In this document: piece after piece, positions 11,559 to 16,868 of the stretch
Layout: the number at the start of each line of letters is the position of its first letter
Position numbering within the stretch: position 1 is the stretch's first letter
Assembly: GCA_009391235.1 (NCBI GenBank)
Contig: VEXD01000001.1
Location: forward strand, 161,470 to 209,930
Reading direction: 5' to 3'
Length of the DNA: 48,461 nt
From: SAR202 cluster bacterium AC-409-J13_OGT_754m
Lineage (GTDB): Bacteria; Chloroflexota; Dehalococcoidia; Lucifugimonadales; GCA-2712585
Notes under the pieces: model-generated
Databases searched by the model: none
Told to the model about the DNA's origin: nothing
What the model saw: only the letters and a program-made list of their open reading frames with translations
Made by a program: the position numbers and the translations under genes

Positions 11559-13421
11559 ATGTACGTAGTCGGAACTGCAGGACACGTAGACCACGGTAAG
11601 TCTACTTTAATAAAAGCGCTTACAGGAATAGATCCAGATAGATTGCCTCAAGAAAAACAAAGAGGAATGACGCTCGATTTGGGTTTCGCATGGATGACCC
11701 TGCCATCTGGACGTCAGATTAGTATAGTTGATGTTCCAGGTCATGAACGATTTGTTCGGCATATGTTAGCTGGGGTTGGCGCCATAGATCTGGCCCTCCT
11801 AATCATAGCAGCCGACGAAGGAATAAAGCCCCAAACGACTGAACACCTGCAAATTCTGAATATGCTTAAAACCAAAAGAGTTCTGGTAGTGGTCACTAAA
11901 TCTGACTTGGTGGACCAGGAAACTCTTGAACTTCTGAATATGGAATTCGAGGATCTCTTCAAAGGTACTGTTTGTGAAGGAGCTTCAATTGTACCGGTTT
12001 CAGTCCCCACCGGAGAGGGCTTAGCGCAGCTAACGGAAAAAATGGACCAGGTTTTGGACACAACTGAACAGCGACAAGATTTAGGTCGACCTAGACTAGC
12101 CATTGACCGCTTTTTTAGCGTATCTGGATTCGGAACGGTAGTAACTGGAACACTGATAGATGGCTCATTTGCTTCCGGAGATGTTGTTGAGATTGTCCCA
12201 TCTGGACTGAACTGTCGTATAAGAGCAATACAATCACACCGCACCACTGTCGAGCATTCCGGCCCAGGGCGAAGACTAGCTATCAATCTTTCTGGGATCT
12301 CAAATGAGGAAATACGCAGAGGCGATATAGTAACCAAACCGGGATGGCTTAAACCTACCATCATGATTGATGCAGAAGTTCAACTTATGCCTAATGCAAT
12401 TCGTCCATTAAAACATAACTCTCGTCTTTCATTTCATCTTCTTGTAAGTGAAACCCAGGCAAGAGTAAGGTTGCTAAACACTCGAGAGCTTCAGCCAGGT
12501 GAACACGCTTGGGCTCAAATTCATCTGGCAAACCCAATTGCATTGGCTAAGGGAGATTTATTCATATTGAGAAATACTATGACCACTGTAGGTGGAGGCA
12601 GGGTCGTTGACATTGCCCCTAAGCGTCATAGACCTTTTGTTGAATCTGTTTTAGAGCGCATAGCATTATTGGATGAAGGCACTATCGAAAGTAGTTTATT
12701 AGGCGCATTGGACGAATATAAACCTTCAAACCCAAAACGGCTTGCTCAGATAACTAATCTAAACCTAGAGCAAATATTATCATCTATAACAGAAATGTCT
12801 AAAGGAGAACAACTAGTACTCTTGGATGAAATTGAAGCAACCCCTAATTCCGTCATATATTCTAACTCCGCCTGGAATAATTTGGAGAGTCGAATAACCC
12901 AAGCTATAAATGCCTACCATGAACAACAGCCATTAAGAAGGGGAATCTCAAAGGAAGAAATACGTAGTCGTTTGGACGTTACTCCGGTAATCTTTGCAAA
13001 AATACTGAATCGAATGAAGAAAGAAGGAACAATTTCAGAACAGGAGGCCTATCTTCGTTCTCCCCACCATAGTACTGCATTAGATGAAAAACAAAAACAC
13101 TTAACTAAATCATTTCTTGATGCCTTGAAATCAAATCCGTATTCTCCTCCCCCAGATCTAATTTTGGAACCTGAATTGCTTGCATTACTGGTAAATGAAG
13201 GTCAAGTAGTGAAACTAAACAACTCCATAACTTTCTTGGCTGAAACCTACGCCGAAGCTGTCCAAATTATAAGCGATCACATCAAATCCCATGGTAATAT
13301 TACTGTCGCACAAGCTCGAACTCTGCTAGACTCAAGTCGAAAATATATTCTACCGCTGCTCGAATATATGGACCAAAATAGAATCACTCGTAGAATCGGA
13401 GATCACCGAATATTAAGGTGA
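11559..13421 (+). CDS. selB: selenocysteine-specific translation elongation factor SelB
   Basis: GTPase that brings Sec-tRNA to UGA codons marked by a SECIS hairpin. The 620 residues show the EF-Tu-like part (about 1-340) with G1 GHVDHGKS at 8-15, G3 DVPGHE at 58-63, and TKSD at 113-116 in place of NKxD. SelB-type wording such as GMTLDLGFAW is present. The C-terminal third is the array of winged-helix domains that binds SECIS RNA, with the hallmark SRKYILPLLEYMD and TRRIGDHR at the very end. No selA, selD or tRNA-Sec is in this window, and none of the genes here has an in-frame TGA that I noticed, so its clients lie elsewhere. Three bases separate its stop from the nurA ATG, which indicates one operon. 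Confidence 0.93.
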   Translation: MYVVGTAGHVDHGKSTLIKALTGIDPDRLPQEKQRGMTLDLGFAWMTLPSGRQISIVDVPGHERFVRHMLAGVGAIDLALLIIAADEGIKPQTTEHLQILNMLKTKRVLVVVTKSDLVDQETLELLNMEFEDLFKGTVCEGASIVPVSVPTGEGLAQLTEKMDQVLDTTEQRQDLGRPRLAIDRFFSVSGFGTVVTGTLIDGSFASGDVVEIVPSGLNCRIRAIQSHRTTVEHSGPGRRLAINLSGISNEEIRRGDIVTKPGWLKPTIMIDAEVQLMPNAIRPLKHNSRLSFHLLVSETQARVRLLNTRELQPGEHAWAQIHLANPIALAKGDLFILRNTMTTVGGGRVVDIAPKRHRPFVESVLERIALLDEGTIESSLLGALDEYKPSNPKRLAQITNLNLEQILSSITEMSKGEQLVLLDEIEATPNSVIYSNSAWNNLESRITQAINAYHEQQPLRRGISKEEIRSRLDVTPVIFAKILNRMKKEGTISEQEAYLRSPHHSTALDEKQKHLTKSFLDALKSNPYSPPPDLILEPELLALLVNEGQVVKLNNSITFLAETYAEAVQIISDHIKSHGNITVAQARTLLDSSRKYILPLLEYMDQNRITRRIGDHRILR

Positions 13422-13424
13422 ATT

Positions 13425-14630
13425 ATGTCTTTAGATTTTAATAAAACTCTTGTTCAGATGGCCGATGTCGTTTCCCGAATGAAAACGTCCCAAAACGATC
13501 GGAATTTAAGGCTTTCATTGGCGGCAAAAATAATGAAGGCTACCAGAGAAAATGATCTAAAGGAAAAACTTTCGTTGGCAAAAGATCGCCCCTTTTTATG
13601 GGCTAACCCAAGTTCCGAGCTTGGAAACGGTCATTCACCAACCGAATTGCCTGAGGAGTTTGCTGTAGTTGCAGTGGATGGTTCTCATATAGATGTAGAT
13701 CGACACTTACCCGTTCCATGCTCTCTAATCAACATAGGAACTTGTATCCTTCAATACGGGACTCAGCCAAATGCTCACTTAGGTAATTACCCTAAGCTTT
13801 ATTCTGACGAAGGATTGTACCTTACTGAACATGGAACCACGACCAGAGAAGTCGCCATAGAGGGTCCTATTCTTGGATTTAAGCGCACCATAGATGAGGT
13901 GCGCGAGTTAGAAAAATTGATATCAGAAATTCCTCCAACAATACCAACATTAGCTTTAGTAGATGGTTCTCTTGTTTTGTGGGGCTTGTCAGGACAAGGA
14001 TACCCTGATCTAGTCCGTCAAGAGTTCTTGGACAAAGGCATTTTGCCAATCCTAGCCAACCTGAAACAAGTTGCACAGAATAGGACCATAAGTGTTGCAG
14101 CATATGTTAGTCTTCCTAGAAGTACGGAAGTCGTCAATGCGTTACGGCTCTACCTCTGTGATACCAATGCAGTTGAATGCAAAAGGTCATGCTCAAACCG
14201 AATGTCCCCTTTTAAACCCTGCGATCTACCTAACGAACTCTTAGACAGAGAACTTTTCGATATTCTATTAAAACCCGGACAGAGATCCGAGCTATTTTTC
14301 ACAAATTCATCAATAGTCCGTGAGCATTACAACGGGCACCAAATATATTTCTTCTATCTCAACAATGGACAAGAAATTGCTAGGATAGAAATTCCTGACT
14401 GGGTTGCAACAAACAAAACTTTGGTTTCCTTAACCCATGCTTTGATTTTAGACCAATGTTATAAAGGTAGAGGATATCCAGTATCAATTTCCGAAGCGCA
14501 TCAACAGGCCGTCATTAATGGTTCAGATCGACAGACATTTAAAGATATGTTAAGTTCTGCTCTCACGCGACAAGGCCTTCCAACTTACACGTCTGAAAAA
14601 ACTCGCTCCAAAAGGCTAGCTTGGCTATAA
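13425..14630 (+). CDS. nurA: NurA-domain nuclease
   Basis: Predicted 5'-3' single-strand exonuclease/endonuclease that works with the HerA motor in DNA-end resection (established for archaea). The 401-residue protein has the metal-binding aspartates D85 (AVDGS) and D180 (LVDGS) in the RNase-H-like core, and the NurA C-terminal signature YPVSISEAHQQAVI at about 351-364. Between these lies an insertion with four cysteines, C245-x6-C252-x3-C256-x9-C266, which could hold zinc or an iron-sulfur cluster; this is inference. It starts three bases after selB, and the next gene begins seven bases after its stop, so selB-nurA-X-herA is almost certainly one transcription unit. Confidence 0.85.
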   Translation: MSLDFNKTLVQMADVVSRMKTSQNDRNLRLSLAAKIMKATRENDLKEKLSLAKDRPFLWANPSSELGNGHSPTELPEEFAVVAVDGSHIDVDRHLPVPCSLINIGTCILQYGTQPNAHLGNYPKLYSDEGLYLTEHGTTTREVAIEGPILGFKRTIDEVRELEKLISEIPPTIPTLALVDGSLVLWGLSGQGYPDLVRQEFLDKGILPILANLKQVAQNRTISVAAYVSLPRSTEVVNALRLYLCDTNAVECKRSCSNRMSPFKPCDLPNELLDRELFDILLKPGQRSELFFTNSSIVREHYNGHQIYFFYLNNGQEIARIEIPDWVATNKTLVSLTHALILDQCYKGRGYPVSISEAHQQAVINGSDRQTFKDMLSSALTRQGLPTYTSEKTRSKRLAWL

Positions 14631-14637
14631 TCTAACC

Positions 14638-15207
14638 ATGTCAGAACGAATAGGTGAAATAATAGAGGCGAATACCAATGGCTTTACTGTCCACTGCTAT
14701 AAACTATATGAATCTCCACCACTAGGCTCAATCATACAAAGCGGAATACCCACAATCTTTGGAGTAATATCCGAAATAACAACTGAGCCGTTGGACCCTT
14801 CTAGGCCAATAATTGCTATAGGCCAAAACGAACCAACAGAAGATGAAATATACCGCAGTAACCCTCAGCTTAATAATTTACTCTGCACTCGGTTGACCGC
14901 CCTTACTATAGGGTACTCAAATAACGAGAATTTTTCTCATGGGCTTCCACCTCACCCTCCTAGAATACACTCATTTGTATATCTATCGGACAATCATTAT
15001 ATCGAAAGTCTAGCTAAATCGTTTGATTTTCTGCATTTACTGTTGAGCAGTGGAACCAATGACGAGGTTGTTTCAGCATGCTTACGTCAAATTAGTCAAA
15101 AGCTTCCCGACGGTTATCCATTCCTTATTGAATCAGGGCAAGCTCTCGCAACAGAACTAATTGGTCAATTTCCCCGCCTCAATGCAATTCTTAGGAGGCT
15201 ATCATGA
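14638..15207 (+). CDS. HAS-barrel-like protein between NurA and HerA (uncharacterised)
   Basis: I do not recognise a named family for the whole 189-residue protein. The first 55 residues (RIGEIIEANTNGFTVHCYKL, then a G-x-I-I stretch and FGVISEITTEPLDPSR) follow the same strand pattern as the N-terminal HAS barrel of the adjacent HerA, which reads LLGHVVSGSLRDGIEIRMGN, then FFGLITNVKLMTTDPN. The remaining part is mostly helical with no catalytic motif that I can see, and no signal peptide or membrane segment. Its stop codon overlaps the herA start (ATGA at 15204-15207), which predicts translational coupling and equal expression. A structural or loading role in a HerA-NurA complex is the natural inference. 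Confidence 0.72.
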   Translation: MSERIGEIIEANTNGFTVHCYKLYESPPLGSIIQSGIPTIFGVISEITTEPLDPSRPIIAIGQNEPTEDEIYRSNPQLNNLLCTRLTALTIGYSNNENFSHGLPPHPPRIHSFVYLSDNHYIESLAKSFDFLHLLLSSGTNDEVVSACLRQISQKLPDGYPFLIESGQALATELIGQFPRLNAILRRLS

Positions 15208-16868
15208 TTGTTGAGAACAACATGGCTCAATCAAACGAACAGAGCTTGTTGGGTCACGTAGTCAGTGGTTCGCTACGTGATGGCATTGAAATTCGGATGG
15301 GCAATCAGGTATCAGTTGAGGATATAAAAGAAGGCACATATGTAACAATACATGGACAAAAAAAGTCATTTTTCGGACTAATTACCAATGTCAAATTAAT
15401 GACTACAGACCCCAATCTTCAATTTTCCTATTCCACAACAGACAACCCTTTCATCTCTGAAGTTATCTCGTCAAGCATGACATACGGCAGTCTCTCGGTG
15501 CTCCCTATGCTCACCCTTCCAGCAGTACTTGGAGCCGATCAAACCGTAGAACCAGCCAAAACTGTACCGTCTCATTTTTCACAAGTCTTCCAGGCTTCTG
15601 AGCGTGATGTCGAAGTCGTCTTCGGAAAAGAGGACCAAACGCACTTTTTTATAGGTAATCCCCTAGATATGGAAACAAAGGTCTGCATTAACCTTGACGA
15701 ACTCATTAAACGTTCATCAGCGGTTTTTGGCAAGAGTGGCACAGGCAAAACCTTTCTAACTAGAATTCTATTAGCCGGGTTAATACAGAGTGACCTGGCA
15801 TCCAGCCTAGTGTTTGACATGCACAATGAATATGGTTCTACAGGACAAGATCGAGACAGAGGAAGACGCGTAAGTGGCCTCAAACAAATCTTTGAGAACA
15901 AGGTTTCCGTTTTTACACTTGATCCTGAAAATAGCAAGAGAAGACAGGCAAAATATGACTTTGAGGTCCAAATAGGCTATAACGAAATCGAACCCGAAGA
16001 CATACAACTCCTGCGAGAAACGTTGAACTTGTCCGATATCGCTGCCGACGCAGCCTATACTCTTGAAAGAGTACTCGGACCTAAAAAATGGCTCCAGAGA
16101 TTCCTCGAAATGGAAATCGATGAGGTTTATGAAAAAGCTGTAGCCTGGAACATACATGCACAGTCAGCCCGATCACTACATAATCGACTATCTCGGTTTA
16201 AACGCATTGGCTTTATGAAACCTACAGCCATCGATGACTCAGTTAAACGCATGCTGGACCTCTTAGGCAAAGGCAAACACGTGATCCTTGAGTTTGGTAG
16301 ATACGGCGATAATCTCACCGCTTATATGCTGGCAGCTAATTTATTGACCCGCAGAATACATGATCGTTATGTATACATGAAAGAAGAGGCCGAAGGAACC
16401 ACTAAAGCCAATGAACCCAGACCATTAGTAATTTGCATTGAAGAGGCTCATAGATTTCTAAATCCAGCCGTAGCACACCAGACCATCTTCGGGAATATCG
16501 CGAGGGAATTGCGAAAGTATAATGTTACTCTGATGATAGTAGATCAACGACCTAGTGCGATCGATTCGGAGGTAATGAGCCAAATAGGAACCAAGGTTGC
16601 TTGTCAACTCGACAACGATAGAGATATAGATGCGACTCTAGCTGGTACGTCTGGAAGTCGAGAATTAAGGTCTGTATTATCTAAACTAGATTCCAAACAA
16701 CAAGCTTTGATTTTTGGCCATGCTGTACCACTGCCAGTTCTTATCCGCACGCGCGAATACGGTTCAGATGGCTCATATGCAGACCTAACACGCCCATCAT
16801 GGCATACGACCGACTTTGGGGTAGAAACTGAAGAAGAGTTGGAGGAGAGATTAAAAGAGTTGTTCTAG
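15204..16868 (+). CDS. herA: HerA-type FtsK/VirB4-fold ATPase (DNA translocase)
   Basis: Hexameric bipolar DNA translocase that partners NurA in end processing. The 554 residues comprise an N-terminal HAS barrel (about 15-70), a RecA-like motor with Walker A GKSGTGKT at 176-183, the FDMHNEYG stretch after it (about 204-211), and Walker B LVICIEEAH at about 408-415. It also has the distal VDQRPSAID motif and an arginine-finger region near RDIDATLAG. The insertion between Walker A and B is helical, as in HerA. The start codon overlaps the preceding stop. An alternative ATG seven codons in is possible. The gene ends the selB-nurA-X-herA unit, and the next gene appears to have its own promoter. 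Confidence 0.9.
   Translation: MIVENNMAQSNEQSLLGHVVSGSLRDGIEIRMGNQVSVEDIKEGTYVTIHGQKKSFFGLITNVKLMTTDPNLQFSYSTTDNPFISEVISSSMTYGSLSVLPMLTLPAVLGADQTVEPAKTVPSHFSQVFQASERDVEVVFGKEDQTHFFIGNPLDMETKVCINLDELIKRSSAVFGKSGTGKTFLTRILLAGLIQSDLASSLVFDMHNEYGSTGQDRDRGRRVSGLKQIFENKVSVFTLDPENSKRRQAKYDFEVQIGYNEIEPEDIQLLRETLNLSDIAADAAYTLERVLGPKKWLQRFLEMEIDEVYEKAVAWNIHAQSARSLHNRLSRFKRIGFMKPTAIDDSVKRMLDLLGKGKHVILEFGRYGDNLTAYMLAANLLTRRIHDRYVYMKEEAEGTTKANEPRPLVICIEEAHRFLNPAVAHQTIFGNIARELRKYNVTLMIVDQRPSAIDSEVMSQIGTKVACQLDNDRDIDATLAGTSGSRELRSVLSKLDSKQQALIFGHAVPLPVLIRTREYGSDGSYADLTRPSWHTTDFGVETEEELEERLKELF

Follow-up and report, generated by a model that had tools for sequence, protein, structure and literature searches.

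The NurA–HerA DNA-end-processing machine, thought to consist of two parts, probably has three in the phyla sampled here. The additional gene, hereafter X, lies between nurA and herA in the window (the whole 48,461-nucleotide stretch of DNA analysed, from a SAR202 cluster bacterium), and encodes a motor-less protein with the fold of HerA's own N-terminal barrel. X is present in nearly every sampled genome that has this HerA, whether or not the genes are linked. The reading that we favour, and which seems on balance probable when taken as a whole, is that the end-processing machine has in X a dedicated third component, probably arisen as a duplicate of the docking barrel and serving as an adaptor or collar.

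The nurA–X–herA locus

The nurA and herA genes are encoded together at this locus, as in NurA–HerA end-processing systems. The original prediction placed a 189-residue gene between them, the three being consecutive, with an ATGA overlap between the herA start and the X stop; coordinates and gene order bear this out:

11559–13421, same direction as nurA, X and herA: selB, complete, encoding the selenocysteine elongation factor, directly 5' of nurA
13425–14630, + strand: nurA, 401-residue 5'–3' nuclease (open reading frame; PF09376, E = 7.9e-27)
14638–15207, + strand: gene X, 189-residue motor-less HAS-barrel protein (open reading frame; nurA–X–herA order in relatives; fold)
14647–14985, + strand: HAS barrel of X, residues 4–116 (AF2 model; Foldseek; PF09378 in homologues)
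14833–14889, + strand: barrel loop and short helices of X, residues 66–84, the TEDEIYRSNPQLNNLLCT region (invariant positions of alignment A1; hhalign register)
14992–15201, + strand: C-terminal five-helix domain of X, residues 119–188 (AF2 model of the domain alone)
15204–15207, + strand: ATGA overlap of the herA start with the X stop (window sequence)
15204–16868, + strand: herA, 554-residue hexameric DNA translocase (DUF87, E = 1.9e-29)
15252–15401, + strand: first part of HerA's own HAS barrel (PF09378, E = 2.8e-5)
15729–15752, + strand: HerA Walker A, GKSGTGKT (invariant residues in 44 HerA)
16440–16445, + strand: HerA Walker B, EE (invariant residues in 44 HerA)

The four genes run in one direction, with 3 bases between selB and nurA, 7 bases between nurA and X, and a 4-base overlap of X and herA. 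No selC tRNA was found in the window, in which the only tRNAs are tRNA-His and tRNA-Arg.

Both enzymes keep their active-site residues. In the alignment of 64 NurA sequences, D85, E158 and D180 are kept in 100%, indicating an intact nuclease active site, and G176, G179, G181, K182, E413 and E414 of HerA are invariant among 44 HerA, so that the Walker residues of the motor are intact as well. The NurA of the window also carries an N-terminal extension of approximately 80 residues, and four cysteines (C245, C252, C256 and C266; 14157–14222) each of which recurs in about 60–69% of the NurA sequences when 64 homologues of the type are compared. To judge from their sequence, the cysteines could bind zinc or an Fe-S cluster.

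The HAS barrel (PF09378), named from HerA and ATP synthase, is the N-terminal domain of HerA. In the genome search the barrel of HerA scores over the Pfam cut-off, and the protein keeps about 145 residues ahead of its motor. Since HerA thus retains its own barrel, X is an addition rather than a piece split off. The opposite reading, in which the barrel moved to its own gene and was lost from HerA, could draw on the fact that X adjoins herA and shares its fold, but we reject it as having practically no likelihood, given the retained barrel and the failure to find any X–HerA or NurA–X fusion in the loci examined.

Fold and family of X

Searched as a single sequence, X matched nothing in Pfam, NCBIfam, PHROGs, PADLOC, plasmids or genome contigs, and the family was therefore first assembled from relatives. 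Two alignments were used, A1 with 28 sequences from relatives' loci and A4 with 53 named or window sequences. The original prediction had rested on the first 55 residues of X, said to follow the strand pattern of the HerA barrel. The motifs involved are real (IGEII...FGVISEI in X; LGHVV...FGLITNV in HerA) but too weak alone, the two proteins of the window matching each other by blastp at an E-value of about 1 only. Moreover, the barrel covers approximately 113 residues (about 4–116) rather than 55, and is followed by a helical domain.

It is at the level of the family that the likeness between X and HerA goes beyond chance. PF09378 matched 9 of the 28, then 18 of the 53 X homologues (best E = 1.7e-5), with a single one, L078, above the curated cut-off (25.3 versus 25.2 bits) and the X of the window unmatched; matches of other Pfam families to the 53 homologues were scattered, with one or two members each. 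Profile comparison with hhalign set X residues 2–83 in register with HerA residues 13–89 (E = 0.0037 as a single comparison; hhalign probability 9%). When the X profile was run against 6,886 open reading frames from 80 herA loci, the matches at E ≤ 10 outside X itself numbered six, all of them HerA barrels. Within the family, six members (L019, L023, L027, L113, L158 and L159) carry insertions of differing lengths at a near-identical site, a loop of the barrel that leads into the VYGVV strand.

Structure prediction agrees with these comparisons. The AF2 model of X, built from alignment A4, is of high confidence (mean pLDDT 95.8, pTM 0.89), with barrel strands at residues 4–12, 15–20, 32–35, 39–51, 82–95, 98–101 and 113–116 and five helices within residues 119–188. 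Foldseek returned 57 PDB matches at E ≤ 0.001, the best 50 of which are all HerA-family chains, led by Sulfolobus HerA (E = 3.7e-7); the listed matches also include Deinococcus HerA, HerA-DUF4297, TdpA and SIR2-HerA. Against viral proteins, the fold gave nothing at E ≤ 0.001. X therefore almost certainly has a HAS-barrel fold, as the original prediction had proposed, its model matching HerA barrels. The absence of a motor was likewise correctly read: the 189-residue protein has no P-loop in its sequence, and its barrel is followed by the helical domain in place of a RecA-like ATPase or Walker A/B motifs, so that X is not a HerA translocase. The helical domain, folded alone, remains well predicted (pLDDT 92.8), and a Foldseek search of the PDB with it found no relative (best E = 2.2). 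Accordingly, X resembles the known HAS-barrel domain in fold and, at family level, in sequence, but differs from it in being free-standing, without a RecA motor, and in the five-helix domain after the barrel.

Another possibility is a superficial likeness, with X a conserved member of the operon whose function has nothing to do with HerA; it would account for the blastp value of the two window proteins and for the low hhalign probability. This is largely refuted by the HerA-family chains that fill the head of the PDB matches and by the homologue over the Pfam cut-off, as well as by a co-occurrence with HerA that holds when the genes are unlinked (see below), and we regard it as very improbable.

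Co-occurrence and gene linkage

An initial survey of 60 relatives, mostly from the order of the window, found X in 49 of them. Wider sampling gave a near-obligate association with HerA:

In the class sample (294 genomes), X was detected in 128 genomes and canonical HerA in 129, with both in 128, X only in 0 and HerA only in 1.
In the phylum sample (301 genomes), X and HerA occurred together in 112 genomes, X only in 2 and HerA only in 6.
In a second phylum (61 genomes; the centre genome is titled Armatimonadetes), X was found in 16 genomes and HerA in 17, all 16 genomes with X having HerA.
In a further, small phylum, X was present in 4 of 4 genomes.

Fisher's exact p-values for this co-occurrence (1e-84, 2e-72 and 8e-14 for class, phylum and second phylum, respectively) are inflated, as they ignore relatedness. 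Nevertheless, X and HerA are present or absent together inside several families of mixed state (f53, f73, f88 and f112), a pattern which relatedness alone does not give. NurA follows closely: all three genes are present in 122 of the 128 genomes with X in the class sample, and most of the 6 others are fragmented or incomplete assemblies. Two genomes of another family (G133 and G147, f72) encode this type of NurA with no detectable HerA or X; both are fragmented, and assembly gaps may be responsible. Overall, the three-gene set occurs in roughly 40% of the sampled class and phylum genomes. NurA–X–HerA is thus a wider bacterial variant and not the peculiarity of one operon.

Gene order is conserved as well, with variations. 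In the loci taken from relatives, the usual place of X is between nurA and herA, although several have no nurA in the upstream 1.5 kb. Of 122 genomes in which the distance could be measured, 114 have X upstream of herA by no more than 400 bp. The distance between nurA and X is as short in only 71 of 106, and nurA can sit 88 kb or 2.3 Mb away. Among 80 named loci seeded on herA, 55 contain X, namely 15 with a compact nurA–X–herA arrangement, 11 where nurA and X are more widely spaced, 25 in which nurA was not found in the locus and 4 with a gap before herA; an NTGA overlap in the frame of herA is present in 39 of these 55.

The remaining 25 herA loci, mostly from Anaerolineae, Chloroflexales and related genomes, have no X nearby, and absence of X from loci otherwise similar would have spoken against the original prediction. 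However, whole-genome search located X elsewhere in 24 of the 25, so the co-occurrence persists without linkage. In most of these 24 cases nurA lies beside X. The coupling of X to herA is therefore not universal; its linkage now to herA, now to nurA, is what would be expected of a subunit in contact with both proteins.

On this distribution and on its fold, we consider it highly likely that X is a component of this NurA–HerA system. The original prediction had gone on to suggest that X and HerA should be made in fixed ratio, and that a separate barrel could cap the hexamer, compete for NurA or make a three-part machine. Fold and co-occurrence uphold the part of it that concerns a motor-less HAS-barrel protein belonging to the system; capping, competition and a fixed ratio stay at the level of suggestions.

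Role of X in the NurA–HerA machine

The closest known systems are the HerA–NurA pairs of Deinococcus radiodurans and archaea (HerA6:NurA2), which share with the present locus a PF09376 NurA, a HerA with DUF87 and HAS barrel, adjacent genes, and the catalytic and Walker residues. Those described consist of two proteins, whereas here a third gene goes with HerA in 128 of the 129 genomes that encode it in the class sample. For D. radiodurans, a physical NurA–HerA complex with resection activity is known, built from two proteins at 6:2 (PMC9960219); X is thus not needed for activity in general. Anti-phage systems (HerA-DUF4297, SIR2-HerA, TdpAB) similarly pair a HerA-type motor with an effector, and their HerA chains are among the fold matches of X. 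Here, however, the effector is NurA, and the three-gene set is common across a class rather than restricted to scattered defence loci. Neither NurA nor X of the window matched any PADLOC model, which gives no sign of an effector from the known defence families.

The exit tier of HerA, made up of its HAS barrels, holds the NurA dimer, in Deinococcus through D78, E80 and D81 (PMC9960219) and in Thermococcus through the first helix and the loop before it (PMC12977600). The corresponding part of X may be residues 66–84, a loop and short helices with an NPQLxxLL motif: in the hhalign register X 76–83 falls on HerA 82–89, and P76, L81 and T84 are invariant in the 28 close homologues. By alignment, this segment would be equivalent to the HerA loop and alpha-1 that touch NurA. 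The idea that this putative NurA-facing motif stands out in X by its conservation found no support: across the wider family it is at most slightly more conserved, with a mean score of 0.49 versus 0.45–0.56 for other segments.

A plausible course of events would begin with duplication of the N-terminal docking barrel of HerA, giving X, with the motor lost or never present and a small helical domain in its place. X would then join the tier of HerA barrels on which the NurA dimer sits, binding through the same loop and helix face that HerA uses on NurA, and could take part in end resection as a structural adaptor or collar coupling the motor to the nuclease. If X is a component, we find this function most likely, ahead of that of a competitor or a DNA-binder.

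As a competitor, X would be a regulator, a mimic of the docking barrel that binds NurA or the HerA crown and restrains the nuclease until a DNA end is engaged, without bridging the two. The mimicry itself suits this idea, as does the position of X beside nurA and away from herA in Anaerolineae and Chloroflexales, expected of a nuclease chaperone or inhibitor; the frequent NTGA overlap and the distant nurA genes nevertheless link X with the motor no less strongly than with the nuclease, and we judge such a regulator unlikely. More doubtful still is a DNA-binding or end-loading factor for HerA, whose barrel and helical domain would grip DNA or SSB, RecA or RecN, contact with NurA–HerA being secondary. 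The lack of a structural relative for the helical domain leaves its partner free, and in a BREX helicase a barrel homologous to the HAS barrel has been assigned to the DNA-binding modules (PMC12839542), but the conserved positions of X include no obvious basic DNA-binding motif and its phylogenetic tie is specific to HerA and NurA.

Returning to the adaptor or collar, a more specific version can be offered, although tentatively and as somewhat improbable in its full detail. In Chloroflexota, in Armatimonadota and in one or more other phyla, the machine would have three components, with X as an extra ring or bridge that joins the six-fold HerA to the two-fold NurA and controls the timing of cleavage or the choice of strand; the form found in Deinococcus and archaea would be the simpler one, of two proteins.

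Long PDDEXK open reading frames resembling AddB were detected, among the strongest matches listed, in at least 11 of 128 genomes with X versus at least 68 of 166 without it in the class sample (p = 1.6e-10, uncorrected for relatedness), which fits an alternative end-processing machine. Apparent swaps between an AddB-like PDDEXK nuclease and NurA–X–HerA were also seen within families f73 and f112.

We found no description of a third NurA–HerA subunit in the open-access literature, and an earlier mention in subscription papers is possible. The role of HerA–NurA is itself disputed: a 2026 study of an archaeal complex found cleavage of both strands and doubts that it carries out end resection (PMC12977600). 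If X is an obligate third subunit at the junction of motor and nuclease, reconstitutions with two proteins may miss a part that governs strand choice or processivity. NurA–X–HerA, being common and tending to occur without AddB-like nucleases, may be the main processor of double-strand-break ends in its hosts, for example in the marine SAR202 group.
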